Below are positions 10,976 through 50,600 of a stretch of 64,000 nt of DNA, piece by piece. Under the pieces are notes generated by a model, which saw only the letters and a list, made by a program, of their open reading frames with translations, searched no databases and had not been told where the DNA came from. The number at the start of each line of letters is the position of its first letter. Positions within the stretch are counted from its first letter, which is position 1. Source of the stretch: Morinoia aosen (Eukaryota > Arthropoda > Malacostraca > Amphipoda > Talitridae); assembly GCA_030386875.1 (NCBI GenBank), contig CM059569.1, positions 50,011,842 through 50,075,841 of the forward strand, written 5' to 3'. The translations under genes and the position numbers were made by a program.

Positions 10976-13900
10976 TCATCTGTAGCGGGAAGGAGGGCGA
11001 ACTACACGACCCTGCCGAGTTCGGCAATTGGCAAATGATACTGAGCGGGGAAGTTTCACCAAACGGGTCTGCAAGTTTAGATCGGCAAGAGTCCTAGGAA
11101 CAGGAGTTACTGCAGCGGGCTCGTCTGGTCTCTCCAGACTTGTCGCTGTGTCAGTAAGAGGGCTAGAGTTAGAATCTACGACAGGGTTAGAGATAGGGTT
11201 TGAATATACAGACACGTAGAAAGGGTTACACTCAAGTTGACTAGGCAACAAGGCAGCCAACTGAGGAAGCTGAGATGGTAGATATGATCGAGTCTCAGTG
11301 GGAAGGGAAATCTGCGGAGAGGATGATGAGTTATAAGTTACACTATGATCCGAAGTGTATGCGACTTTTAATCGATCAATGCTCACAGGATCGTGTGAAC
11401 CGAATCGTTCGATGATGAAATATTTTTGCTTGCGTTTAAGTACTTTGAATGGGCCATCATAAGGGCGCGTGAGTGTAGGTTTTATAGCATCATTTCGGAC
11501 ATACACATGTGTGCAGTCTTGCAGGGCGGAATCTAGTTTGTCCTGAGTCTGAGGCATTCGTGGAGCCACATACTTGATCTTACGCATGCAATCTTTGAGA
11601 CAGGTTACATAAGCGGAACGGTCAGCGGATGAAAATTCAGGCAAAGGTTTTGGGTCAACAATGTCGCCGGGGAGACGAAGCGTTTTCCCGTACAACATTT
11701 CAGCCGCTGTGCATTGCTGATCCTGTCTGTGTAAATTTCGAATGCTAAGTAGTACTACTGGAAGTCTATCAGTCCAATCGTGACTGCAATTAAGGCAGCG
11801 CAATGCAGCCTTGAGGTCTCTGTGGACTCTCTCAATAAGTCCATTTGACTGCGGATGATACGCAGTAGTTGATGTATTTGCACACCCTAAAGCGGTGCTA
11901 AGCTCACTCCAGAATTTGGAGGTGAATTGTGATCCCCGGTCATGTGTGACACTTAAGGGAACCCCAAATCTAGAGATCCAGTTTGACAAAAACGCGCGCG
12001 CTAGTCTCAGTTTGGGTATCAGGAAGAGGGACAGCCTCAACCCAACGCGTGAACCTATCGATGATGGTCAACAAATAAGAATAACCGCGCGATAACGGCA
12101 AAGGACCCACCAAATCTAGGTGTACAGAGTCAAACTTGTGACCTGTGAATGCACAACTCTGCAGCGCCGCACGATTATGTTTCACCACCTTACTACTCTG
12201 ACACGCATGGCAATTTTGCACAATTTGCTTGACCTCCTTACGCATCGCTGGCCAGACGAAACGATCAGAAATCAAACGCACTGTACGGTTAATACCTGGG
12301 TGAGAGAGGGAATGGTAGTGGAGGACAGCTACTCTGCGGAGCGTCGCAGGAAGATACAAACGAGAAGGTCGCTCGGCATCACGGTACACGCCGTCAACCA
12401 AGGTTAGTTTTGGAGGGGAAGTGTTAGGAGGTTTGAGAAGGTCCTGAAGTTCCGGATCCTCCTTCTGCGCTCTTTCAATGTTGCCGAAGGTGATTTCACC
12501 ACTGGTTTGGACAGAATTAATTCTAGAGAGACAGTCAGCTACAGTATTGTCGAGACCTTTGATGAAGCGGATATCAGTGGTAAACTGACTTATAAACGAC
12601 AAGTGTCGAGCTTCCCTAGGGAATGTCTTTCAGAAGGCATTTTGATCGCTGAGGTCAGAGGTTTGTGATCTGTGTAGATCACAAACTCTCTCGCCTCTAG
12701 AGCATAGCGAAAGTGTCTCACAGATAGGTAGATAGCAAGAAGTTCCCTACCGAACGCGCTATAACCACGCTCAGTGGGCGACAGCTTTTTGGAAAAGAAA
12801 GCAAGAGGAGAGATATTAGTACCTACTTGTTGTTGCAACACAGCACCTACGGCGGTACTGGATGCGTCCACAACGAGGCTGAAATCAGCGTTAGCAATAG
12901 GGTAGGATAGTTCAGTCGCGGAAGCTAACTTGTGTTTGATTGTATCAAAAGCTTTGCGCGCTTCTTCCGTCCATTTTACCTCAATAGATTTGCCTTTTCG
13001 TTTCGGTTCGAGGAGGTCAGACAAGGGCGCTAAAGTTTGAGCACAGTTGCGTATGAAACGATGGTAGAAGTTAACAGAACCTAGGAACCTTCTTAGTTCC
13101 TTCTGGGTCTGTGGAAGAGGAAAGTTTTTGATCACTTCTACTTTGGAAGGCAAAGGTTTTAGACCTAGGCTAGAGATTTCATGACCTAAGTAAATCAGTG
13201 ATGGCTTTCCGAGCTCACATTTTGCAGGATTTACGAGGAGTCCATTGTCGGACAATCTTTGAAAAACGACCCTAAGATGGTCTTTGTGCAACTCTGGGGT
13301 TGTGGATGCCACTAGGATGTCGTCTAGATAGACATAAGCGAAAGTGAGATCAGAGAAAATTTCAGCCATGTGCCTTTGGAACGTCTGAGGAGCGTTCCTC
13401 AAGCCGTAAGGCATTTTTAGGAATTCGAAAAGACCAAACGGAGTGATTACCGCGGTCTTAGGAATCGCAGACTCATCCAAGGGAATTTGATGGAAGGCAG
13501 ACTGCAGGTCTATCTTAGAGAAAATTTGTGCTCCCTCTAAATTTGCACTGAAATCGTGAAGGTAGGGGATAGGATATCGATCAGGTAAAGTAACGGCGTT
13601 CAACCTGCGGAAGTCCCCGCACGGTCTGAATTCACCGTTAGCCTTGGGTACTAGCAAAAGAGGGCTAGCCCAAGGGCTTTTGGAAGTGCGAATGATGCCG
13701 CTTTCGAGCATCCTAGCGAATTCTTTCTTAGCTAACGCCAATCGATCAGGCGGCAGTCGCCTAGCACGGGAGAAAACTGGCGGACCTTGCGTCTCTATGA
13801 AGTGCTTTGTGCATGTTTGCATGCTATTAGAGGCTAAGTTAGGGTTTGTTAATGCTGGGAAATTTTTAAGTTCCTGTTCAAACATGCACTCCTCCTTGAA

Positions 13901-14296
13901 AGCAATCGAGAAGGAATGCAAGACATTTGCTCTAGTTATGCTACAAGCGGGAATTGAGATCTGTGTCTCCTCGTCCCTAATACACCGATTCTTAATATCT
14001 ACAATTATACCATACTTGGCTAAAAAATCAGCACCAATTATTGGTTCTTGAACATCAGCTATCATGAAGGTAAATACAAATTTTCTCCTCAATCCCAGAC
14101 CGCACTCTAAATTTCTCTCACCGTAACAAGGTATTGGCGTGCCGTTTGCGGCGCGTAATGTCGCCAATATTTGGTTGTTTTTGTCTTTCACCGTGGCTGG
14201 GATAATTGATACACTGGAGCCAGTGTCTATTAAAAATCGATACTTGGTGACGGGATCGTGAATGGTCAAGAGGCGAGTAGTCTGGGAATGAGGCAA
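10976..14296 (-). pseudogene. pol: Copy A pol, frameshifted (protease-RT-RNase H-integrase)
   Basis: Same protein as the intact copy at 16835-20164 but split over three frames: 14296-12590 (protease with DTGS, RT with YLDD, RNase H), 12602-11970 (integrase zinc finger and first catalytic Asp) and 12040-10976 (rest of integrase). Against copy B there is a 1-nt loss in a G run near 12620, a 2-nt loss near 12002 and an in-frame 6-nt loss near 11194. These total 9 nt, exactly the length difference between the two internal regions. The 1-nt homopolymer change could be a sequencing or assembly error; the 2-nt one is less easily explained that way. As read, this copy cannot make full-length pol. Confidence 0.92.
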
Positions 14297-14335
14297 CGCA
14301 GTACTCGCTACTATGCGTCGCTGATGGCGTTTCCC
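14293..14335 (-). promoter_or_regulatory. -1 ribosomal frameshift signal, copy A
   Basis: GGGAAAC (14335-14329 on the minus strand), 7-nt spacer, then an 8-bp stem GCGACGCA / TGCGTTGC (14321-14314 with 14300-14293). Identical to the signal in copy B. Confidence 0.75.
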
Positions 14336-15282
14336 GAAGTCATTTCGGTATAACGAGGACAGTATCTAGAGGCACATTTGCGAGCTTGGTCACCAAATTT
14401 CATGTGGTACCAGCATAAATTGCTACTAGCATCACGAGAGCGCGACCTGAAACGGCGGTCTTGATTTGACCTATCATAAGATCTACCTCTATCAAAGCGT
14501 TGAGGAGGAGGAGAAGGATAGTTAGGGTGATAGTCAGAGGGATAGTCGTAGGCATTTTGGTGGCTTTGGAATCTCCCTGGGCCTTGCTGAATGTGAGCCA
14601 CACTTTGACCTATTTGAAAATTTTGGAGAGCTTGCTTTATTTTAGCGATGTCCTGCTGCAGCTTATCTATTGTGGCTGAGGATTGATTTTGCGCCGTATT
14701 TGACGGGCTAAAAGTTGTAGCTCCTACATTCAGGGAAGCAACTTGTGGTTCTCGTGGCAAATTAATATTTCGGATCACCGTCTCTGCGGCTTCCGCTAAT
14801 TTTTCTAACGTTTGCTCGGGCCCTGCTAAGGATAGAAAAGGACGAACGTTAGGTGGAAGCTTAGTCATGAAAACTTCCTTCAGAAATCCCTCAGCTACGG
14901 CAACACCCGTAGCGAGTTTCCGCAGCTCTTTAACTAGCGAAGAGGGAGAGAAAGAAAAAGAGACAGATGGAATTGCTGAGGCGTCTACAAGACTTCGGAA
15001 TTTGTCCGCATCGGACATCTGAAGCCTTGCCAAGATTTTGCCTTTCAAGATTCCGTAAGGATTGGGATCTGGAGGGTTTTCTAAGATGTCGTTAGAGTTA
15101 TTTAGTAGTTTTGTGGGCGCGGCGCTCACAAGAGCATAGAATTTGTCTATCTCATTACTTATTTTATGGTACCTAAATACTGCTTCACACTGCTGGAACC
15201 AGGTGTGAGCGTCCTCCGGAATAAAGGGCGGGAGCCTAATGGGATTTGTGTGTGCTCGATCTTCGTTATCTGAGTCAGGCAT
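14311..15282 (-). CDS. gag: Copy A gag
   Basis: A 323-codon ORF encoding the capsid/nucleocapsid precursor of the retrotransposon. It starts MPDSDNEDRAH and has the central region WFQQCEAVFRYHKI typical of gypsy gag. The C-terminal arginine/serine-rich stretch is followed by a CHCC-type finger, C-x2-H-x9-C-x4-C (CWYH through CASRYC). It differs from copy B gag by at least two residues (Phe for Val in the SVSxSFSP stretch; Lys for Glu in DIAxIKQ). The ORF is open although the downstream pol is broken. It ends at TAG 13 codons before the first in-frame pol leucine and is linked to pol by a -1 shift. Confidence 0.9.
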   Translation of the reverse strand: MPDSDNEDRAHTNPIRLPPFIPEDAHTWFQQCEAVFRYHKISNEIDKFYALVSAAPTKLLNNSNDILENPPDPNPYGILKGKILARLQMSDADKFRSLVDASAIPSVSFSFSPSSLVKELRKLATGVAVAEGFLKEVFMTKLPPNVRPFLSLAGPEQTLEKLAEAAETVIRNINLPREPQVASLNVGATTFSPSNTAQNQSSATIDKLQQDIAKIKQALQNFQIGQSVAHIQQGPGRFQSHQNAYDYPSDYHPNYPSPPPQRFDRGRSYDRSNQDRRFRSRSRDASSNLCWYHMKFGDQARKCASRYCPRYTEMTSGNAISDA

Positions 15283-15858
15283 GCTAGCAATCTCTTTTGG
15301 GGATGCGCAATTAATGATATCAGTGCCTAAGACTTGGGATGAGGCAGCAAGGGTTTGCGTTAATTCTTTACCTACTCAATCATTCAGATAGAGTTGAAAC
15401 AGAAGGAAGGAAATATGAAATTGGAAACGAGAAAAATTTTTGCGGTATGCGGCAATTTGCGTAGGCACGAAAATAAAGCAGGTGAGAAAAAATTATCTTC
15501 CTACCTACTCAATCAATCAATAACGTTGAAGAAAACGGAAAGAGAGAGAATGGAAGCGAAGATTTTTACGGTAGTCAGAAATAAATGCACAGCACGGAAA
15601 TAAAAAATATTCTCCCTACCTACTGAGGCACATAAAACAAACAAACAAGGACAGGATAGCGCTGACGCTGAAAAAAAAACTTTGTTAGAGCTGCTCAGAG
15701 AGATATTAGCACGGAAAAACTCCACAGGAAATTTCTCAAACTACCACGAAATGGGAAAATTTATCACTACAATGATACGCCAACATTATCCTCTCACAAT
15801 CTCTCAAACACTTCGAGTTGAGTTTTGATTTTTAAGAGATTCCCGGCCGATGCACCAG
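15283..15858 (-). other. Copy A 5' leader with tRNA-Gly primer binding site
   Basis: Untranslated leader between the middle LTR and gag. The bases next to the LTR (15857-15838 on the minus strand) read TGGTGCATCGGCCGGGAATC after a 1-nt spacer. This is the complement of a tRNA-Gly(GCC) 3' end including CCA. Short plus-strand ORFs here are chance. Confidence 0.82.
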
Positions 15859-16834: not shown

Positions 16835-19800
16835 TCATCTGTAGCGGGAAGGAGGGCGAACTACACGACCCTGCCGAGTTCGGCAATTGGCAAATGATAC
16901 TGAGCGGGGAAGTTTCACCAAACGGGTCTGCAAGTTTAGATCGGCAAGAGTCCTAGGAACAGGAGTTACTGCAGCGGGCTCGTCTGGTCTCTCCAGACTT
17001 GTCGCTGTGTCAGTAAGAGGGCTAGAGTTAGAATCTACGACAGGGTTAGAGATACGAGTAGGGTTTGAATATACAGACACGTAGAAAGGGTTACACTCAA
17101 GTTGACTAGGCAACAAGGCAGCCAACTGAGGAAGCTGAGATGGTAGATATGATCGAGTCTCAGTGGGAAGGGAAATCTGCGGAGAGGATGATGAGTTATA
17201 AGTTACACTATGATCCGAAGTGTATGCGACTTTTAATCGATCAATGCTCACAGGATCGTGTGAACCGAATCGTTCGATGATGAAATATTTTTGCTTGCGT
17301 TTAAGTACTTTGAATGGGCCATCATAAGGGCGCGTGAGTGTAGGTTTTATAGCATCATTTCGGACATACACATGTGTGCAGTCTTGCAGGGCGGAATCTA
17401 GTTTGTCCTGAGTCTGAGGCATTCGTGGAGCCACATACTTGATCTTACGCATGCAATCTTTGAGACAGGTTACATAAGCGGAACGGTCAGCGGATGAAAA
17501 TTCAGGCAAAGGTTTTGGGTCAACAATGTCGCCGGGGAGACGAAGCGTTTTCCCGTACAACATTTCAGCCGCTGTGCATTGCTGATCCTGTCTGTGTAAA
17601 TTTCGAATGCTAAGTAGTACTACTGGAAGTCTATCAGTCCAATCGTGACTGCAATTAAGGCAGCGCAATGCAGCCTTGAGGTCTCTGTGGACTCTCTCAA
17701 TAAGTCCATTTGACTGCGGATGATACGCAGTAGTTGATGTATTTGCACACCCTAAAGCGGTGCTAAGCTCACTCCAGAATTTGGAGGTGAATTGTGATCC
17801 CCGGTCATGTGTGACACTTAAGGGAACCCCAAATCTAGAGATCCAGTTTGACAAAAACGCGCGCGCTACAGTCTCAGTTTGGGTATCAGGAAGAGGGACA
17901 GCCTCAACCCAACGCGTGAACCTATCGATGATGGTCAACAAATAAGAATAACCGCGCGATAACGGCAAAGGACCCACCAAATCTAGGTGTACAGAGTCAA
18001 ACTTGTGACCTGTGAATGCACAACTCTGCAGCGCCGCACGATTATGTTTCACCACCTTACTACTCTGACACGCATGGCAATTTTGCACAATTTGCTTGAC
18101 CTCCTTACGCATCGCTGGCCAGACGAAACGATCAGAAATCAAACGCACTGTACGGTTAATACCTGGGTGAGAGAGGGAATGGTAGTGGAGGACAGCTACT
18201 CTGCGGAGCGTCGCAGGAAGATACAAACGAGAAGGTCGCTCGGCATCACGGTACACGCCGTCAACCAAGGTTAGTTTTGGAGGGGAAGTGTTAGGAGGTT
18301 TGAGAAGGTCCTGAAGTTCCGGATCCTCCTTCTGCGCTCTTTCAATGTTGCCGAAGGTGATTTCACCACTGGTTTGGACAGAATTAATTCTAGAGAGACA
18401 GTCAGCTACAGTATTGTCGAGACCTTTGATGAAGCGGATATCAGTGGTAAACTGACTTATAAGCGACAAGTGTCGAGCTTCCCTAGGGGAATGTCTTTCA
18501 GAAGGCATTTTGATCGCTGAGGTCAGAGGTTTGTGATCTGTGTAGATCACAAACTCTCTCGCCTCTAGAGCATAGCGAAAGTGTCTCACAGATAGGTAGA
18601 TAGCAAGAAGTTCCCTACCGAACGCGCTATAACCACGCTCAGTGGGCGACAGCTTTTTGGAAAAGAAAGCAAGAGGAGAGATATTAGTACCTACTTGTTG
18701 TTGCAACACAGCACCTACGGCGGTACTGGATGCGTCCACAACGAGGCTGAAATCAGCGTTAGCAATAGGGTAGGATAGTTCAGTCGCGGAAGCTAACTTG
18801 TGTTTGATTGTATCAAAAGCTTTGCGCGCTTCTTCCGTCCATTTTACCTCAATAGATTTGCCTTTTCGTTTCGGTTCGAGGAGGTCAGACAAGGGCGCTA
18901 AAGTTTGAGCACAGTTGCGTATGAAACGATGGTAGAAGTTAACAGAACCTAGGAACCTTCTTAGTTCCTTCTGGGTCTGTGGAAGAGGAAAGTTTTTGAT
19001 CACTTCTACTTTGGAAGGCAAAGGTTTTAGACCTAGGCTAGAGATTTCATGACCTAAGTAAATCAGTGATGGCTTTCCGAGCTCACATTTTGCAGGATTT
19101 ACGAGGAGTCCATTGTCGGACAATCTTTGAAAAACGACCCTAAGATGGTCTTTGTGCAACTCTGGGGTTGTGGATGCCACTAGGATGTCGTCTAGATAGA
19201 CATAAGCGAAAGTGAGATCAGAGAAAATTTCAGCCATGTGCCTTTGGAACGTCTGAGGAGCGTTCCTCAAGCCGTAAGGCATTTTTAGGAATTCGAAAAG
19301 ACCAAACGGAGTGATTACCGCGGTCTTAGGAATCGCAGACTCATCCAAGGGAATTTGATGGAAGGCAGACTGCAGGTCTATCTTAGAGAAAATTTGTGCT
19401 CCCTCTAAATTTGCACTGAAATCGTGAAGGTAGGGGATAGGATATCGATCAGGTAAAGTAACGGCGTTCAACCTGCGGAAGTCCCCGCACGGTCTGAATT
19501 CACCGTTAGCCTTGGGTACTAGCAAAAGAGGGCTAGCCCAAGGGCTTTTGGAAGTGCGAATGATGCCGCTTTCGAGCATCCTAGCGAATTCTTTCTTAGC
19601 TAACGCCAATCGATCAGGCGGCAGTCGCCTAGCACGGGAGAAAACTGGCGGACCTTGCGTCTCTATGAAGTGCTTTGTGCATGTTTGCATGCTATTAGAG
19701 GCTAAGTTAGGGTTTGTTAATGCTGGGAAATTTTTAAGTTCCTGTTCAAACATGCACTCCTCCTTGAAAGCAATCGAGAAGGAATGCAAGACATTTGCTC

Positions 19801-20164
19801 TAGTTATGCTACGAGCGGGAATTGAGATCTGTGTCTCCTCGTCCCTAATACACCGATTCTTAATATCTACAATTATACCATACTTGGCTAAAAAATCAGC
19901 ACCAATTATTGGTTCTTGAACATCAGCTATCATGAAGGTAAATACAAATTTTCTCCTCAATCCCAGACCGCACTCTAAATTTCTCTCACCGTAACAAGGT
20001 ATTGGCGTGCCGTTTGCGGCGCGTAATGTCGCCAATATTTGGTTGTTTTTGTCTTTCACCGTGGCTGGGATAATTGATACACTGGAGCCAGTGTCTATTA
20101 AAAATCGATACTTGGTGACGGGATCGTGAATGGTCAAGAGGCGAGTAGTCTGGGAATGAGGCAA
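16835..20164 (-). CDS. pol: Copy B pol polyprotein, intact
   Basis: An uninterrupted 1109-codon ORF. In order: aspartic protease (FLIDTGSSVSIIPA, residues 21-34), reverse transcriptase (PYGLRNAPQTFQRHM; active site YLDD near residue 324), RNase H (VVDASSTAVGAVL, then IYTDHKPL), integrase with an HHCC zinc-binding finger (HSLSHPGINRTVRL to CHACQSSK) and the catalytic D-D-E (HLDLVGPL, THDRGSQFT, YHPQSNGLIERVHR), and a GPF-type C-terminal module (RPYDGPFKVL). The apparent start at 20164 is a TTG. The protein is more likely made as gag-pol by a -1 shift upstream, since the frame is open back to the slippery site. All catalytic residues are present, so this copy could be autonomous. Confidence 0.95.
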   Translation of the reverse strand: MPHSQTTRLLTIHDPVTKYRFLIDTGSSVSIIPATVKDKNNQILATLRAANGTPIPCYGERNLECGLGLRRKFVFTFMIADVQEPIIGADFLAKYGIIVDIKNRCIRDEETQISIPARSITRANVLHSFSIAFKEECMFEQELKNFPALTNPNLASNSMQTCTKHFIETQGPPVFSRARRLPPDRLALAKKEFARMLESGIIRTSKSPWASPLLLVPKANGEFRPCGDFRRLNAVTLPDRYPIPYLHDFSANLEGAQIFSKIDLQSAFHQIPLDESAIPKTAVITPFGLFEFLKMPYGLRNAPQTFQRHMAEIFSDLTFAYVYLDDILVASTTPELHKDHLRVVFQRLSDNGLLVNPAKCELGKPSLIYLGHEISSLGLKPLPSKVEVIKNFPLPQTQKELRRFLGSVNFYHRFIRNCAQTLAPLSDLLEPKRKGKSIEVKWTEEARKAFDTIKHKLASATELSYPIANADFSLVVDASSTAVGAVLQQQVGTNISPLAFFSKKLSPTERGYSAFGRELLAIYLSVRHFRYALEAREFVIYTDHKPLTSAIKMPSERHSPREARHLSLISQFTTDIRFIKGLDNTVADCLSRINSVQTSGEITFGNIERAQKEDPELQDLLKPPNTSPPKLTLVDGVYRDAERPSRLYLPATLRRVAVLHYHSLSHPGINRTVRLISDRFVWPAMRKEVKQIVQNCHACQSSKVVKHNRAALQSCAFTGHKFDSVHLDLVGPLPLSRGYSYLLTIIDRFTRWVEAVPLPDTQTETVARAFLSNWISRFGVPLSVTHDRGSQFTSKFWSELSTALGCANTSTTAYHPQSNGLIERVHRDLKAALRCLNCSHDWTDRLPVVLLSIRNLHRQDQQCTAAEMLYGKTLRLPGDIVDPKPLPEFSSADRSAYVTCLKDCMRKIKYVAPRMPQTQDKLDSALQDCTHVYVRNDAIKPTLTRPYDGPFKVLKRKQKYFIIERFGSHDPVSIDRLKVAYTSDHSVTYNSSSSPQISLPTETRSYLPSQLPQLAALLPSQLECNPFYVSVYSNPTRISNPVVDSNSSPLTDTATSLERPDEPAAVTPVPRTLADLNLQTRLVKLPRSVSFANCRTRQGRVVRPPSRYR

Positions 20165-20203
20165 CGCAGTACTCGCTACTATGCGTCGCTGATGGCGTTT
20201 CCC
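20161..20203 (-). promoter_or_regulatory. -1 ribosomal frameshift signal at gag-pol junction, copy B
   Basis: On the minus strand the heptamer GGGAAAC (20203-20197) sits in the gag frame as G GGA AAC, the X XXY YYZ pattern. Seven bases later GCGACGCA (20189-20182) can pair with TGCGTTGC (20168-20161), eight pairs with one G-T, enclosing a 13-nt loop that contains the gag TAG. A -1 slip enters the pol frame (KRHQRRIVASTA, then LPHSQTT) without a stop. Confidence 0.78.
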
Positions 20204-21150
20204 GAAGTCATTTCGGTATAACGAGGACAGTATCTAGAGGCACATTTGCGAGCTTGGTCACCAAATTTCATGTGGTACCAGCATAAATTGCTACTAGCAT
20301 CACGAGAGCGCGACCTGAAACGGCGGTCTTGATTTGACCTATCATAAGATCTACCTCTATCAAAGCGTTGAGGAGGAGGAGAAGGATAGTTAGGGTGATA
20401 GTCAGAGGGATAGTCGTAGGCATTTTGGTGGCTTTGGAATCTCCCTGGGCCTTGCTGAATGTGAGCCACACTTTGACCTATTTGAAAATTTTGGAGAGCT
20501 TGCTTTATTTCAGCGATGTCCTGCTGCAGCTTATCTATTGTGGCTGAGGATTGATTTTGCGCCGTATTTGACGGGCTAAAAGTTGTAGCTCCTACATTCA
20601 GGGAAGCAACTTGTGGTTCTCGTGGCAAATTAATATTTCGGATCACCGTCTCTGCGGCTTCCGCTAATTTTTCTAACGTTTGCTCGGGCCCTGCTAAGGA
20701 TAGAAAAGGACGAACGTTAGGTGGAAGCTTAGTCATGAAAACTTCCTTCAGAAATCCCTCAGCTACGGCAACACCCGTAGCGAGTTTCCGCAGCTCTTTA
20801 ACTAGCGAAGAGGGAGAGAAAGAAACAGAGACAGATGGAATTGCTGAGGCGTCTACAAGACTTCGGAATTTGTCCGCATCGGACATCTGAAGCCTTGCCA
20901 AGATTTTGCCTTTCAAGATTCCGTAAGGATTGGGATCTGGAGGGTTTTCTAAGATGTCGTTAGAGTTATTTAGTAGTTTTGTGGGCGCGGCGCTCACAAG
21001 AGCATAGAATTTGTCTATCTCATTACTTATTTTATGGTACCTAAATACTGCTTCACACTGCTGGAACCAGGTGTGAGCGTCCTCCGGAATAAAGGGCGGG
21101 AGCCTAATGGGATTTGTGTGTGCTCGATCTTCGTTATCTGAGTCAGGCAT
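20179..21150 (-). CDS. gag: Copy B gag, intact
   Basis: A 323-codon gag precursor that would form the particle and bind element RNA. Starts at ATG (MPDSDNEDRAH). It has a helical capsid-like region, a short Gln-rich coil (SATIDKLQQDIAEIKQAL), an Arg/Ser/Tyr-rich basic stretch and a terminal C-x2-H-x9-C-x4-C finger. The CHCC arrangement instead of CCHC is the mark of the CsRn1 group of Ty3/gypsy elements. It ends with SGNAISDA then TAG, just after the slippery site. Confidence 0.92.
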   Translation of the reverse strand: MPDSDNEDRAHTNPIRLPPFIPEDAHTWFQQCEAVFRYHKISNEIDKFYALVSAAPTKLLNNSNDILENPPDPNPYGILKGKILARLQMSDADKFRSLVDASAIPSVSVSFSPSSLVKELRKLATGVAVAEGFLKEVFMTKLPPNVRPFLSLAGPEQTLEKLAEAAETVIRNINLPREPQVASLNVGATTFSPSNTAQNQSSATIDKLQQDIAEIKQALQNFQIGQSVAHIQQGPGRFQSHQNAYDYPSDYHPNYPSPPPQRFDRGRSYDRSNQDRRFRSRSRDASSNLCWYHMKFGDQARKCASRYCPRYTEMTSGNAISDA

Positions 21151-21726
21151 GCTAGCAATCTCTTTTGGGGATGCGCAATTAATGATATCAGTGCCTAAGA
21201 CTTGGGATGAGGCAGCAAGGGTTTGCGTTAATTCTTTACCTACTCAATCATTCAGATAGAGTTGAAACAGAAGGAAGGAAATATGAAATTGGAAACGAGA
21301 AAAATTTTTGCGGTATGCGGCAATTTGCGTAGGCACGAAAATAAAGCAGGTGAGAAAAAATTATCTTCCTACCTACTCAATCAATCAATAACGTTGAAGA
21401 AAACGGAAAGAGAGAGAATGGAAGCGAAGATTTTTACGGTAGTCAGAAATAAATGCACAGCACGGAAATAAAAAATATTCTCCCTACCTACTGAGGCACA
21501 TAAAACAAACAAACAAGGACAGGATAGCGCTGACGCTGAAAAAAAAACTTTGTTAGAGCTGCTCAGAGAGATATTAGCACGGACAAACTCCACAGGAAAT
21601 TTCTCAAACTACCACGAAATGGGAAAATTTATCACTACAATGATACGCCAACATTATCCTCTCACAATCTCTCAAACACTTCGAGTTGAGTTTTGATTTT
21701 TAAGAGATTCCCGGCCGATGCACCAG
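21151..21726 (-). other. Copy B 5' leader with tRNA-Gly primer binding site
   Basis: Leader between the 5' LTR and gag. The primer site TGGTGCATCGGCCGGGAATC lies at 21725-21706 on the minus strand after a 1-nt spacer and matches a tRNA-Gly(GCC) 3' end. Confidence 0.82.
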
Positions 21727-38621: not shown

Positions 38622-41588
38622 TTATTGAGACACAAGATGACGAGTTATTTTGGCTTTAAATTCTCTCGGTCTTTGAGGGACTTTAATACTCAGGGGAAGT
38701 TTGTTCCACAGTAAGGCGCCTGATATGGACAGAGCCTTCTGCCCTAAGTGAGATGAACGATAGTTGACTAAGACATTATTATTTCTGTTCGGTTTTTGAT
38801 TGGTTACAGTGGGTGGATGGAAACGCACTATCTCAGCACTGCTCTGAGGAAGATATAACGAGGAGAATACGTATTGGGCCTTCTGCATGAGGAGCCTTTC
38901 TTGGATAGGAATCCAGCCGAGTTTATTGAGGAGAGGGGTTACGTGGTCACTTCTTTTGAAATTACCGTTGCATACCACCTTCGCTGCAAAATTCATGCAC
39001 TTTTGTAAGTCCCTTTGAAGGTATTTAGGTAAGTCTCCCCATACTAGGCTGCAGTAGTCAATGCGCGATAACACAAGGGATTGAATTGCTAATAATCTGG
39101 ATTTTTCGTCTAGCATACTTTTTATACGATGAAAAAACATTAAAGTTCCGTAGATTTTGTTGCAAGTAGTCTCAACGTGAGATTTGAAGGACATATTTCT
39201 ATCGAACCAGATACCTAGATTTTTAACTTTTTCTGATGCATTAATTTTATCATTTCCAACTGCAAGAGTAAGATCTGAAGTTTTTTTAATTGCATCTTTG
39301 GATCCAAAAATAATGCATTGTGTTTTATTAGCATTTAATTTGAGACCATTTCGGTCGTGCCATGATTTCAGGCTAGTCAGTAAAGTTTCGGCTTTAATTT
39401 GCGTCTGTGGTATTTCCGATACAGAACTTGTTATTGCAATTTGAACATCATCTCCATACATTGAGATCCGTGTGTTAGAAGGCATTGGAGGGAAATCATT
39501 AATGAAAATAGAAAACAGTAGTGGACCAAGAATGGATCCTTCGGGAACACCAAAATTGTTTTGAATGAATGGGGACAATTTGTTTTCAATGCGGACTGCA
39601 TGAGATCGATTTGACAAGTAACTTTCAAACCATTGCGTGTCTATTCCCAAGTTCAGTATTTTACGTAGAAGTCTTTCATGTTGGACGCTATCGAACGCCT
39701 TAGAGAGATCGAGTAGTAGCAAGAGTGTTACATTCTTTTGATCGATGTCACTGTATATTTTTTCAGATATATTGAGCAGAGCGTCTTGAGTGCTAGTATT
39801 TCTTCTATAGGCATGTTGATTTTGGTGGAGTAAATTTGACTCGTCCAGATGAAATGACAGTTGATTTGTCACCACTTTCTCCAATAGTTTGGACATGACA
39901 GGCAAAAGACTGATGTGCCTGTAGTTTGATGCTGTATTTAGGTCACCACTTTTGTGCAACGGTCTAATAATGGAGTGTTTCCATTGGTTTGGAAACGTAT
40001 TGGTTACTATTGATGTATTAATTATCAGACGAATCCATGGTGCTGTAACAGGGAAACTTTTTTTGATATATTGAAGACTGATACCATCATTTCCAACTGC
40101 CTTTGTGTTTTTTAGTGAGTATAAGATGTTTCGTAACTCTGGTAAATCGACAGGGCGTGGTCTCCACTTGACATCAGTCCTCGAGGGTGCAGTGTAGCAT
40201 GAATTTTCAATTGTCGTTTCATCTGGTTTGGTACACACCTCACTGAAAACTTGAGCCCCTACTTTTGAAAAGAATGTGTTGAAATCCGTGGCTGTTGCCA
40301 AGGGATTTTCAAAATTACTTATGCGATCTAAATTTTTATATGGGGCTACCTCACTAATGATTTCCAAAGTTTGCTTCGGGTTATTTTTAGCCGTTATCAG
40401 TGCCTGGTGGAAGTGAGTTTGTTTCGCTTCAGTGATTTTCTTTCGAAGAATTTTTTCATGTTCTTTATATCTCTTGTATAAGGTACTGTTTGATCTATTG
40501 TTTTTGTACTCTCGCAAGTTAGCTTTCTTTATTCTGCTCATCTCTTTAACTTCGTCAGTAATCCAAACAGTCCGTTTTGGCTTGGTTTTTTTGGTGACGT
40601 AAGGTGCACATTCGTCGAGAGCTGCTGTGAAGTTCTCGTTGAAAATTGACACTTGTATGTCAACATCGTCAGATTGCATCATTTTCTGGAATTCGGTAGA
40701 CCTATCGAGTAGTTTTTCTTGAAATAGTTCTGCTGAATAGTGCCTTTTCGAGCGATAGGTCATTAAGCAGTATTTTTGTCTTTCCTTCGCAATATTAATT
40801 TCACATTCTATAGAGTGGTGATCGGAAATAGAAGGTGATATTACTGTACTAAGTATTGCGGTGGGATTATTTGTGATTGCTAGATCGAGGAGAGTTGCAG
40901 AGACTTTAGTGATGCGAGTCGGTTCTTTGACCATTTGTGATAAGCTTAGTTTATACAATAGTTTGCTTAGCTGATTGTTTTTGTCCGTTAGGTCAACATT
41001 GAAATCTCCGAAAGCAAAGAATGATTTTTTTGCCTGAAGGATTTCTTTGAAGGTTTCCTCAATGAAATCTAGTGTTAGATTTAGGGGAGACGATGGGTGC
41101 CGGTAAAGGCTGCCAATGATTATTGATTTGTGCTTATTTATTTGCACTTCTAACCAAACCATTTCAATGCCTTCGCAAACTTTATTCGCTAGTAGTGAAG
41201 ATGTTGAGTACATTTCTTTCACAAAAATACAAGATCCACTACCTCGGCTGGTTTTAGCGCCATCGTAGCGGTACAACACGTAATCAGGAATGTTAAAAAA
41301 TGAACTTTGGGTTCGTGAATCAAACCATGTTTCTGAGACACACAAAATGTCAATTTTTTCAGTGACCAACATTACTCTGATTTCATCCAATTTACCATTC
41401 AGGCTTCGAGCATTTACATGCTTGATTTTGATTTTACCTATATTAGCACTCTTTTTAAAGGTAGCGAGGTTACTATCTCGATGGGATCGTTCAGGGGATT
41501 TATCGATTTTGTCTAAGTTGCCCAGGGTGTTTGGCCCAGCATCTGCTATGTAAGAAAGTCTACTATTTGGCTGGGCAGCGGCACTTTG
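38622..41588 (-). CDS. LINE ORF2: endonuclease and reverse transcriptase
   Basis: The open frame runs 988 codons back to a TGA at 41589-41591. The first in-frame ATG is at 41390, but the endonuclease fold clearly begins before it (KIKIKHVNARSLNGKLDEI, about 41455-41400), so translation must start upstream, most likely at 42056. AP-like endonuclease motifs: NARSL, SETWFD, GSLYRHPSSP, GDFNVDL, SDHHSIE. RT blocks: NYRHISLLPVMSKLLEKV, LLDLSKAFDSVQHERLL, GVPEGSILGPLLFSIFINDF and the active site YGDD (39458-39447) where most LINEs have YADD or FADD. The C-terminal region holds ALLWNKLPLSIKVPQR. Catalytic acids are kept, so decay is limited. Confidence 0.93.
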   Translation of the reverse strand, partial: QSAAAQPNSRLSYIADAGPNTLGNLDKIDKSPERSHRDSNLATFKKSANIGKIKIKHVNARSLNGKLDEIRVMLVTEKIDILCVSETWFDSRTQSSFFNIPDYVLYRYDGAKTSRGSGSCIFVKEMYSTSSLLANKVCEGIEMVWLEVQINKHKSIIIGSLYRHPSSPLNLTLDFIEETFKEILQAKKSFFAFGDFNVDLTDKNNQLSKLLYKLSLSQMVKEPTRITKVSATLLDLAITNNPTAILSTVISPSISDHHSIECEINIAKERQKYCLMTYRSKRHYSAELFQEKLLDRSTEFQKMMQSDDVDIQVSIFNENFTAALDECAPYVTKKTKPKRTVWITDEVKEMSRIKKANLREYKNNRSNSTLYKRYKEHEKILRKKITEAKQTHFHQALITAKNNPKQTLEIISEVAPYKNLDRISNFENPLATATDFNTFFSKVGAQVFSEVCTKPDETTIENSCYTAPSRTDVKWRPRPVDLPELRNILYSLKNTKAVGNDGISLQYIKKSFPVTAPWIRLIINTSIVTNTFPNQWKHSIIRPLHKSGDLNTASNYRHISLLPVMSKLLEKVVTNQLSFHLDESNLLHQNQHAYRRNTSTQDALLNISEKIYSDIDQKNVTLLLLLDLSKAFDSVQHERLLRKILNLGIDTQWFESYLSNRSHAVRIENKLSPFIQNNFGVPEGSILGPLLFSIFINDFPPMPSNTRISMYGDDVQIAITSSVSEIPQTQIKAETLLTSLKSWHDRNGLKLNANKTQCIIFGSKDAIKKTSDLTLAVGNDKINASEKVKNLGIWFDRNMSFKSHVETTCNKIYGTLMFFHRIKSMLDEKSRLLAIQSLVLSRIDYCSLVWGDLPKYLQRDLQKCMNFAAKVVCNGNFKRSDHVTPLLNKLGWIPIQERLLMQKAQYVFSSLYLPQSSAEIVRFHPPTVTNQKPNRNNNVLVNYRSSHLGQKALSISGALLWNKLPLSIKVPQRPREFKAKITRHLVSQ

Positions 41589-42056
41589 TCAAGATGAGGT
41601 AACCCCGGTCTGATTTTTGCCTTGTGTGACAAGAGCACTGTAGTGATCGTTTTTACGATGGAGCAGTAGTGGAGGGTTATTATTTGATAACTCTGAAATG
41701 GGAACGACTGATATTTTCAAAACACAATGATCTCGTTCATCCAGGACGAGAAGTTTTAGGCCTGTCACATTTGAAATGATTAGTGGTATAAGGTCTACAG
41801 CAGCTTGGTCAAAATGTTTTTCGTCAATGTAATTATCTATGAGGTTTTGCATGTCGCCACTGTTCTTGTCAAAAAACTTAGCATGTGTGCTGTAGTTTGC
41901 TTTACTCTCTGTTTTGATTGCAGCCTTTAGGGAATTGTAATTCCATTTTGATGCTGGTTGTTTTGTAAGTAGATGAGCTACTGCGTGGAGGAGGCAGTGT
42001 CCATCGGCTTTGGTGGGAATCAGTTTTATGTTCCATGATCGTTTCAATTCATCCAT
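41589..42056 (-). CDS. LINE ORF2 N-terminal part: OTU-like cysteine protease domain
   Basis: 155 codons from ATG at 42056 (context CACAATGG) to TGA. PTKADGHCLLHAVAHLLT matches the OTU active-site motif (D-G-x-C; Asp18, Cys21). NDHYSALV near the end supplies the second motif with His138 in the usual place, about 117 residues later. OTU enzymes cleave ubiquitin or ubiquitin-like chains. The TGA at 41589-41591 lies in the same frame as the downstream endonuclease-RT, so one polyprotein is the likely ancestral form. The start lies 8 nt after the ORF1 stop, suggesting reinitiation. The function in this element is inferred from motifs only. Confidence 0.8.
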   Translation of the reverse strand: MDELKRSWNIKLIPTKADGHCLLHAVAHLLTKQPASKWNYNSLKAAIKTESKANYSTHAKFFDKNSGDMQNLIDNYIDEKHFDQAAVDLIPLIISNVTGLKLLVLDERDHCVLKISVVPISELSNNNPPLLLHRKNDHYSALVTQGKNQTGVTSS

Positions 42057-42064
42057 TGTGGAAT

Positions 42065-44263
42065 TCAGGCGTTCACAAATGGGGCTGGAGACGTTTTTTT
42101 CCCACTTTTTTCATCATTAAGAGGTTCTGAGAGGTGCGGGGAATTTACGTTTTTCTGGCTCTGAATTCCCGTTCTGTGGTGATTTCTCGTATGGGGATTT
42201 GCAGAGAACTGAGAAATGCTCGTGTCAATTATATTTTTCTGGTGATGATTGTGCATACCGTTGGGTAGTGGATTTTCCATCGATTGTCGACTGCAATTTT
42301 GCAGCGATTTCTCTCTTCCTGTTGATTTTACTGCTTCCGAGTATGTGATTGGATGTTGATTTATACTCGTGTCTGAGAGGGGCTTTTCATCCTCTTCATC
42401 AGCATTGGATAGCAATGAAAACCTATTTTTTTGTAGGCACTCCGCAGTTGTTTGTGGCGGATGCAGGAGAGGGCTTGTTATATGAGGGCAAACATCGGGA
42501 GGAGAGGGGAGGAGAGGGTTTGTTATATGAAGGCAAACATCGGTTTATGCTGCTGGAGGTTTCACGTGGATAGGCGGTCAAATTAGAACAATCATTCAAC
42601 TCATTTTGCTGTTTTGAATAATCATTAGAGTATTCAATTTCTTCATTCAGATCATGGGAGTTTCTGACACAGGAGATAAAATGTGAAGTTAGTCTCAAAG
42701 GTGATTTTAGAGCAATTTGTTGAAGAAAATGATGCGTGTCTTCTCGCGTAACGGGCCAAGTGCGGACATTGTTGTAAGCTTCATCAGCAGGACCGGTTAT
42801 TACATTTGCTCGCAGCGGAATCAGTTTAAGACCAATTTTTCTGCACAGGCTCGATGCCATGTACAATTGCTGCCCACTGCAGGCACTCACCACATAAATA
42901 CGAGAAAGAAGATTCTTTGTCATGATCAAATTTTTTAATTTCGTGAGATTTTGGGACGAGAGGCTCAAACCTTTGAAACTAATTATATAGTTCCTGAAAG
43001 GAGGTGCGCGTTCAATCTCATCTTAGAGATCATTTAGACGTTCCGAAGTTATGGTCTGAATCCTGCATGCACCATCAATGTCATCTCTGTTGATTTTTGT
43101 GAGACTATTGTCTCCAACGAGAAAAGTGTCTAAAGGGGATTTCGCATAAGGATGGTTACTCGCAGCTACCACCGGCGTAAAATCATGAGCGCTGATACGA
43201 TAATTTAAAGCAAAAAGCTGTTCTGTAATCACTTGAATATTTGATACAGTGGAAAAAATCGACGCTGGGCTTGGGGGACAATTTTGTCTCAAAGCTTTAT
43301 TGAAAAATGCAGCTGTAAGAGACAGCGTGTTATTTATTTCGTGAATAGTTTGGGAACTGGTCATTTGGAGAGGATGTAAGTACCCATCAAAAGCGGTAAC
43401 AGGTCTGGTTGTATTTTTCTCCACTGAAAATCTTACGTTATCCTCGCAGTTTACGCTCTGAGATATTTTACTGCCAGTATCAGCTGCTGCGTATGCATTT
43501 TCAAACATAACTTCGCCGCCTGAAAGGTCTACACACAATTTATCATTAAAATTATAATTAAAATTACCCCTTATGCTTTTTGACTGGTTGCACACATCCA
43601 AAATTTTATCGCGTTCTAACGATGACGTTGGTGTTTCCGTCGGCGGTGAACGATTTTGAGCTTTCTCAGTTACGCAGGGCAGGGGCGACGTTGCCATGAC
43701 GCAATCGTTTCGGCGAGACGAAGGAGCTCGCAGTCACGACGCAGTGCTGTGGCAGCTTCCGCCAGTGAGGACGTATCTTCTTCACTAAAGATTCTCGGCT
43801 TTGTGGACGATGAATCTTCTCGGACACAGTCCAAAGCGTGGGGTTGAGAGTCGAGTGCTGCTTGTACGGAATTTCTTGAACTCGCTTCGGGTGTGCCCGT
43901 AGCAGGTTTCAGAACTTGAGAAGATGAATTATTACTGGGAGCTGGATTATTACAAGCAGCGCCTGAGAGATTTTCGCCCGTGTCAGATGACTCTGATTTT
44001 AAAGTCATTAGTGATGCTTCAGGGGCTGAGAAACACTTGCTGATACCAGACTTCACGAACGTCCGAGAAGCATTTTTCGTTTTGACTGTTTGAGGACCTT
44101 GAACTGATGGATTCACAGGGGCGGATTTATTAGGTCTGCCTTTCCGCTTTATGGCTGGTGCTTTACGCTTTTTACTGAGCTTTTCGTGCGAAGCTGTACT
44201 GGAGGATGTTTTTTCAGATGGGGCAACCTTCCGAGTAGTTGAACGAGTTCTATATTGATACAT
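42065..44263 (-). pseudogene. LINE ORF1, interrupted
   Basis: Four open pieces in sense order: 44263-43670 (ATG; MYQYRTRSTTRKV; basic and Ser-rich, a nuclear-localisation-like KRKAPAIKRKGRPNK, a short coil near the end), 43697-43023, 42968-42423 (same frame as the previous piece, separated by TAA at 43023-43025) and 42415-42065. Frame changes are needed near 43690 and at the A7 run at 42432-42426. With two frameshifts and one stop it is a decayed nucleic-acid-binding ORF1, about 700 codons if whole. No zinc finger or esterase motif was seen. A 45-bp direct duplication (RCLPSYNKPSP twice) lies at 42469-42545. Confidence 0.75.
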
Positions 44264-47655: not shown

Positions 47656-50600
47656 CTGCCATGGTAGACGAAATAAAGTCATTTCTCGAGGGAAAAAACG
47701 TACCGATTGCTCGACTAGCCAATAGTAAGGCTTGATTTCAGAGAGGTTGGATGACGTCACTGTGGCATCATGTCGTTAGGCCAATAGCGGTGCCTGATTT
47801 GGGCTAACAGTGTTGCCAGATGCAATCTAAGCGCTGCTATTGGCCTAACGACATGCTTTTGGACGTACAACGCGAAATTGTGAATGAGGCTCTGTTCTTT
47901 TGCGCTGATGATAATTGAATGAATTTCTAATAGCATGGGACGATGGAAACGAACCGATTGACGCATTTTTGTTGCTAATTAAGCAAGTGTGGTAAGAATG
48001 ATTCTTTTATTCCAATCAAGCCTGACACATATCATCTTTGACATTGTTTTCGTTTCAAATGCCTTATTACTAACGCATGTTAACCTGTACTCGTTTCCAA
48101 TACATGGGGAGAGAGGGGAATTATTTATGTTGTTGACGAAAAATTTCTGTAACAATTTAATGAAAATGTTCTTCCTCAATTTACTAAAAGAAAGATGTTT
48201 GGTTCTTTTTCACCCTCCGTTCATGTGTGCATGCCCGAATGTTGAAATGAATGCTCATCGTAGCCGTATGTGTGGATCGTAGGACCCGCCCTTCCGTGAA
48301 GGTGGGTGGGTCGAATCCTGGCGCTGGGTGGCGACTTTTTCTGTTGGGTATAGGGGAAAATTTCAAAGCACAATACCCCACTCTGCCCAGGTGTCTGAAA
48401 TGGGTACTGGCCTTGGCCGGGGGAAACCGTCAAGCGTCCTGTTGTTAGTTATAAGGCATTTGAAAAACCAATGTGCAAGGTGATGCGTATCAGGCTTGAA
48501 TTGGAAATAAAGCATCCTTAGATGCCGATGTTTATTTGTTTGTGTGATTAAAGCCAGTATTCTGCAAGGATTCATTGTCGTTGAAATATGAAAATTAAAA
48601 GATGTATATTCGCAGATTCAAATGGGAGCCCATGAGTTAAATATAAAGGTTAAGTAACTTTCTCAATTGAAATTTTAAAGTGACTATCGTGAGACAAATT
48701 TCAAAATGTAATTTTCTTAACTTCCTAAAAAGAGCCTTAATTCGTTGAATAGAATCAAATATTCTAGCTTTATTACATATACAGAGTGACCGGCACTTTG
48801 TTGAACAAACTTTAACATGAGGTTGGGGCTGTTGAAATAGACCTATTTCACTCAATAACAATGCGATCGAAAATTAAATGCTTCGTTAAAGAGTTACAAT
48901 GAATTAAAATCTTTATGTTTTTCTGAGTGCTTCATTACATGAAAGGTTGAAATTCATTTATAATGAACATTCCCCAAAACACCGATTAAATTCTGAAAAA
49001 GATGTGATCGCTAAAATTTTCGAAGCTTCTGCAAAGATTTGTGGTGGTCCTGTTGTATTCGATCGTGTGAATGCTTGCATCGTTAGGCGTCGTGATGCAC
49101 GTATTTTCTAACTACCTATCCTAATTTAAAAATTAGTTTCTTGTGGTCATAATAATTGAAGCTGTTATTCTGTGTCTTGTGTTCCGATACCTGTCAAATT
49201 TCAAGTCCTTATAACTGTTTAAGGAAGCATTATCAACCCCGCGGTTCTTAAATAAAAAATGTTTATTTCGGCGGTCCCAACCTTATGTTAAAGTTTGCTC
49301 AACAAAGTGCTGGTCACGCTGTAAATCAGATACCCAACCCAATATTGAACCGAATTCTGGTCTCGAAATACAAAACAGGGAATATTTATACGTTGTTTAA
49401 CTCCATACGTGATTGATGACACATTCCTGCTCTTCACCAAGGGTCTCAAAGTTGAGGAAGTAGGTGTAATTGGCTTGGCAGCGCGAGCAGAAGGGCGTGT
49501 ACGGCGTCCAGTGCTCGTCCAAGCGTTTTCCAGCGGCGTGCTCTCGTACAATAAAGTCCACAAATTGTGGGAAACTCGGGTTACACTGTCGCGATGCCTT
49601 CGTTTGCTTGGTCATAAGGTACTGAACTCCATGGTAGAATTTTAAATTCGATTCGATTAATTTATCTCGGTAACTGGACAGTATTCTATCGAAGGGTTCC
49701 CTTAAAATCACGAATGATGTGTACGCAGGATCGTTCATGAAATATAAAGTATCGTCTAGCGATGGGTGGGGATAAGCATTTTTACGGGCGAGCTCAACGT
49801 CAGAGTTCTTTTCCACGTTCGGGTCAACACCCGCTATTATCATGAAATAATCAGACCACGAAGACGAAGCTGATTTGAAGATGCTGCACCACGTCAGTTT
49901 ATATCTGTGGTTAATGAGGAACTCCCAGCTATTTACCGGCACTGACTTGGCCGCGCTGCTGACATCATTCGCGCAAACTTGGCGAATTGCAGTTTTTCGT
50001 TCCTGAAGCCTCAATGTTATCTCGTCTACTATTTCATTGTCGTAGTATTTGTCTAGCTGGGAAAACTCTTCGTGTGCGGGTATACGCAAGTCCTGCAAAT
50101 AAAATTTGAACTTCGTGTATAACAAAAATATGTGATACAACCAAAAACCGAGTGATTTTATGTAATACAATTCCTCGAGTTAACTCTGGAGGATCCATTG
50201 CGATGTGAGTGCATAAATTACAGTAGTGGTATTATTTTGCACATTCAACTTTTTCGCGTTTGGAACTTGTCGGAGTACGTCCTTTTTTTCGTTTAAAAAA
50301 GAAGTGTTATTAAAATTTGCGCAAAAATTATAATCCTCGTAATTTACTTCACAGGTAGTCAAATTAATAAAAATTTCATTTTATAACAAAACATTCAAAA
50401 TATTATTTGTGCGCTACAAACCTGTGAATATAGAAATAAGGATGATAACAAAACATGCGTTTGGAAGTTTCTGAGTCAATTTCTTCGTTTTCAAAACATG
50501 CTTGAAACACCAAATAAAAATTTTTAACTGTACCCACTCACTTTTCGTGTTATTTTGCAATTAAGAAACCAAGCGCTGTACAAAAACATCTAAACAATTT

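Follow-up and report, generated by a model that had tools for sequence, protein, structure and literature searches.

It has long been asked how a long interspersed nuclear element (LINE) makes a small amount of its ORF2 protein from a single RNA, and reviews mention reinitiation or unknown starts (PMC5972666, PMC5009743). The question arises at a locus on the minus strand of a 64,000-nucleotide stretch of the genome of the amphipod Morinoia aosen (contig CM059569.1, positions 50,011,842 to 50,075,841; hereafter the window, with positions counted from its first letter). Here an open reading frame (ORF) with a predicted OTU-type cysteine protease domain is separated by a single TGA from the endonuclease and reverse transcriptase (EN-RT) of the same element. 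An earlier note on this DNA had placed the OTU domain at the N-terminus of ORF2 and treated the TGA as an interruption. Intact copies show instead that the OTU domain ends ORF1 and that the TGA is its normal stop, which we think ribosomes probably read through at times.

The OTU domain as the end of ORF1

The minus-strand frame 42110-41589 (173 aa) contains the motifs DGHCLLHA and HRKNDHYSAL, with the His of the second lying 117 residues after the Cys of the first in the window copy. It runs to the TGA at 41591-41589 and continues in the same frame as a 988-codon EN-RT frame (41588-38622), confirming the Cys/His pair with OTU spacing and the frame through one TGA that the earlier note had described. 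This downstream ORF encodes both an APE-type endonuclease (40818..41420; Pfam Exo_endo_phos, E 2.9e-06) and a reverse transcriptase (39207..39947, ORF2 residues 548-794; Pfam RVT_1, E 5.2e-34), which identifies the element as a LINE, and it ends at a TAA (38622..38624). The endonuclease begins HVNARS; in APE endonucleases the Asn of this NARS motif is a catalytic residue.

A search of the 1.99-Gb genome (29 contigs) gave 4072 candidate places, and each of the 150 scored had a match at E below 1e-104. Twenty long copies were fetched for an OTU frame open over ~896 aa, together with eight shorter ones, the window copy included. TGA at the same codon was observed to end the OTU frame in all 28 distinct copies and in four of four further copies. 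A genome-wide pattern search with exact flanks and three free bases at the stop gave 328 matches, and among the 100 listed there were 98 TGA, one TAA and one TGT. ORF1 of intact copies comprises 896 codons from stop to stop, with a Met at codon 10 and hence 887 aa; both ORFs are open in 10 of the 20 long loci, ORF2 having 988 codons (989 in one). Divergence from the majority sequence is 0.2-1.6% for the window copy and for 19 of the 20 long copies, and 9.7% for L020, which consists in part of other sequence. The element in the window is a young two-ORF LINE, and in its family the OTU domain is securely the C-terminus of ORF1, ended by a genuine stop. The 28-copy count and the listed matches refute decay of the window copy as the origin of the TGA in this family. 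L020, retained in the 28-copy count, turns into unrelated sequence from about 5.3 kb on, and L022 does so soon past the ORF2 stop. One tabulation gave open frames of up to 1909, at odds with the first scan of these copies; as L022 proved on direct reading to have the TGA, those values were left aside.

ORF1 of the window copy is broken by frame changes and one TAA. Its basic N-terminal part (43670..44263, minus strand, as are all parts of the element) starts with a Met at 44263 and lies in a frame different from that of the OTU domain. The middle part (42423..43733) is broken by the TAA at 43025-43023 and is open in the 20 long copies, which were chosen for their open frame. It includes an SGNH-esterase-like domain, placed approximately at 42669..43139 by a fold match of the equivalent part of a second family (model residues 28-171). 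A low-complexity part (42065..42544), again in another frame in this copy, precedes the C-terminal part with the OTU domain (41592..42110; core in the earlier note from 42056), in which the Cys codon is 41996-41994 and the His codon 41645-41643.

The second family, a sister family in the same genome, was found with the public predicted protein P0001 as query. An OTU match lay immediately upstream in 31 of the 32 EN-RT places scored. Among the eight loci read, seven have the OTU domain, an in-frame UGA-CUA and a 53-codon linker, and the eighth (L035) begins inside the linker, being truncated there. Additional stops occur in the OTU domain of L033 and in the endonuclease of L029. ORF1 is open over 797 aa from its Met in one copy (L030 with L037); in the second copy followed upstream (L031 with L038) the open frame spans no more than 627 codons. 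The two families share 54% identity in the OTU domain, 61% in the endonuclease and 39% in ORF1. A pattern search for family 2 gave 556 matches, with 97 TGA, two TAA and one GGA among the 100 listed. In both families the frame continues from OTU to EN-RT across the stop, and intact members carrying the two out of frame, named earlier as counter-evidence, did not occur. The proposed order of OTU, endonuclease and reverse transcriptase stands uninterrupted in the public predicted proteins P0001 and P0002, whereas a stop intervenes in the intact copies of the window family.

Identity and constraint of the OTU domain

Taken alone, the OTU sequence of the window copy gives weak scores. Against Pfam PF02338 it reached 19.9-20.2 bits (E 0.0011 at 19.9), below the curated cut-off of 23.3; used singly as a query against PDB sequences it had no match better than E 0.5; and its own model was poor, with a predicted local distance difference test score of 46.8 and matches at a root-mean-square deviation of 11 to 19 Å. 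The Pfam score and the poor model weigh against the explanation proposed below. In favour of the OTU assignment, two family 2 copies passed the Pfam cut-off (32.3 and 30.2 bits), and an OTU fold was predicted by modelling, with fold matches. The deubiquitinases vOTU (nairovirus), OTUD3, Otu2 and OTUD5 were matched at about 11 to 23% identity, the domain here being a predicted one; yeast Otu2, which has also been solved on the ubiquitylated 40S, was the tied best fold match. The DGHC that contains the Cys was invariant, as was HY in the His motif, in four of four aligned sequences (the window family with the proteins P0001, P0002 and P0003) and in six of six in alignment A4, which holds two family 2 copies, one family 1 copy and the same three proteins.

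Between the families, the OTU core showed 0.33 nonsynonymous (dN) and 2.35 synonymous (dS) substitutions per site, and the endonuclease 0.20 and 2.25; these ratios are rough because dS is near saturation. The OTU core is clearly constrained, at a level close to that of the endonuclease. The OTU signal is above chance, though weak by single-sequence tests; a chance motif was ruled out by the fold matches, the family 2 Pfam scores and the between-family constraint. The OTU identity proposed in the earlier note is supported, and the presence of an OTU domain within a LINE is secure. A protein search with the OTU part of ORF1 returned none of 393 candidates at E<=0.01, one with the OTU part of P0001 returned P0001 itself only, and scans of viral contigs with P0001 and OTU alignment A3 confirmed no relative. 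In P0003 a long repeat-like stretch rich in histidine separates an SGNH-like region from an OTU domain, beyond which the protein extends for about 100 aa.

Proposed translation across the ORF1 stop

The ORF1 stop in the window (41589..41591, UGA-CAA-AGU), kept as TGA across copies, is the proposed readthrough site. It is followed by a linker of 56 codons (41421..41588) with neither an in-frame stop nor an ATG, and the first in-frame ATG of ORF2 (41372-41370) lies downstream of HVNARS. Among the long loci this AUG is codon 73 in 19 of 20 and codon 46 in L023. In the first 55 linker codons an in-frame ATG was present in one of 29 rows and an in-frame stop in three, the window copy being counted twice; L044 and L045 read UGA-CAG for the UGA-CAA found elsewhere, a synonymous change in the first linker codon. 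In 10,000 dinucleotide shuffles, a stop-free linker arose in 1.25% of trials for the window family and 0.33% for family 2, and one free of both stops and ATG in 0.46% and 0.02%; the other linker frames hold 4 to 14 stops. That EN-RT stays in frame beyond a stop present in nearly all copies examined suggests occasional ribosomal readthrough to make the enzyme. General reassignment of UGA was rejected: the open ORFs hold no other TGA, and UGA terminates ORF1.

In the literature UGA-C counts as a leaky stop and UGA-CUA as a type II readthrough motif, UGA-CUA(G) being read through at about 4% in humans (PMC3542737, PMC4973966). Like type II viral sites (UGA-CUA or UGA-CGG, as in alphaviruses), family 2 has UGA-CUA before its replication enzyme.

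Several observations weigh against readthrough. The window family, with UGA-CAA, departs from the type II motif. Type II sites usually carry a stem-loop about 8 nt after the stop; none was detected here, the energies of local folding after the stop being no different from those of shuffled sequence in either family (z -0.98 to +0.86). The linker is hardly constrained between families (ratio of nonsynonymous to synonymous differences, pN/pS, 0.74), and the window family itself offered too few changes to test selection on it. The copies are young, so that the TGA counts show the state of source copies and not selection on each copy, and the shared frame could be inherited given that P0001 and P0002 are uninterrupted.

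On a rival view ORF2 is made separately, by termination-reinitiation or from a non-AUG start in the linker, with a common frame left by a fused ancestor. Reviews describe reinitiation for SART1 and, for L1, an unconventional start that needs no AUG (PMC5972666, PMC5009743); each family's linker contains an in-frame CTG, the uninterrupted OTU-EN-RT proteins exist, and RNA structure stimulating readthrough was not found. Separate initiation, however, needs no frame open up to the stop, yet both families keep one; near-cognate codons stand at differing places in the two linkers, and the second family has UGA-CUA. We regard it as unlikely, though a serious contender, and consider readthrough the probable route on the sequence evidence. 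The TGA might also be a fixed defect, with copies mobilised in trans by another element and ORF2 not made from them. The many copies would fit this; the stop at the same junction in two families differing at 39% of endonuclease residues, the constraint on the endonuclease and the fully open ORF2 in half of the long loci make it very improbable.

A model in which the OTU domain opens ORF2 and the TGA reflects decay of the window copy draws on P0001 and P0002, which hold OTU and EN-RT in one frame; it is scarcely tenable, as the TGA is found in nearly all copies of both families and the open ORF1 extends into the OTU domain. Compatible with any model of translation is an OTU domain that no longer cuts ubiquitin and acts as a binder or a structural part of ORF1. 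The adjoining SGNH-like domain reads GDN for GDS, so that pseudo-enzymes are possible in this element, and two of the three catalytic OTU residues, Cys and His, have been assigned. The constraint on the domain and the invariance of DGHC and HY throughout alignment A4 tell against such a loss, which seems rather improbable to us.

Known systems and a proposed role

A similar layout is that of ORF1 type IV (esterase) LINEs of the CR1 and L2 lineages such as ZfL2-1, which have an SGNH-like ORF1 domain and then an EN-RT ORF2 (PMC3905857, PMC4120745); the SGNH fold in ORF1 was found here by the fold match of the family 2 model. The present element differs in the OTU domain following the SGNH-like domain, in GDN for the usual GDS, and in a single frame that ORF1 and ORF2 share across a stop. 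Neither OTU nor protease occurs as a word in the main text of PMC4120745. Read by eye, GDN is present in the window copy, in family 2 and in copies L041 and L042, and L012 has RDNS; from GDN, the esterase-like domain may be catalytically dead. Ginger1 elements and Helitrons/Helentrons likewise bear OTU domains, which are presumed to function in the ubiquitin pathway (PMC2836005, PMC6431247), but are DNA transposons, whereas here the domain lies in ORF1 of a retrotransposon with an APE endonuclease and a reverse transcriptase. Among the papers listed by literature searches none describes an OTU domain in a LINE or LINE readthrough, and novelty is provisional, since an earlier name may exist in Repbase or Dfam. 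The non-long-terminal-repeat elements Dualen/RandI are reported to include some with a protease-like domain, which serves as a lead only. Where PMC2861651 and PMC2734521 speak of an 'in-frame stop codon', broken copies are concerned.

Elsewhere in the window, two similar Ty3/gypsy-like stretches (10976-15375 and 16835-21243) lie in the same orientation on the minus strand. Each comprises a gag-like frame of 354 aa together with pol frames, an identification based only on the appearance of the translations. A sulfotransferase exon-like frame lies at 49397-50179, minus strand (Pfam Sulfotransfer_2, E 2e-30). An Rfam scan of the window gave no match at gathering thresholds, SECIS included.

We propose that ORF1, with its basic N-terminus, SGNH-esterase-like domain, low-complexity stretch and C-terminal OTU-type cysteine protease, would end at the UGA in most rounds of translation, the EN-RT following in its frame and lacking a usable AUG. 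A small fraction of ribosomes would decode the UGA as sense and yield an ORF1-OTU-EN-RT fusion, a single leaky stop determining how much packaging protein is made relative to enzyme, as viral Gag-Pol readthrough does. Carried by both products, the OTU domain would clear the element's particle, or host proteins bound to it, of ubiquitin or a ubiquitin-like modifier, and so protect the retrotransposition complex. Ubiquitylation restricts LINE proteins in mammals (PMC5570191, PMC10716122), and by analogy with host ubiquitylation of L1 proteins, protection of the particle is the most likely role of the domain. Taken as a whole, readthrough with OTU protection of the complex is our best explanation and probably correct, with readthrough, catalytic activity and substrate inferred. 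We give about an even chance to the fuller picture of a LINE that translates like a retrovirus, with programmed UGA readthrough, a Gag-Pol-like ORF1-ORF2 fusion and an OTU domain that shields the particle from ubiquitylation. A bolder version, in which the nascent OTU domain would deubiquitylate the ribosome at the leaky stop and favour continued translation, has only a hint in the modelled match to Otu2.

Two diverged families that both retain an in-frame UGA, in one of them as UGA-CUA, provide a case on which the question of ORF2 synthesis could be decided. If the proposal is true, the OTU domain of ORF1 would directly counter ubiquitylation, and the contest between element and host could be tested within one element.
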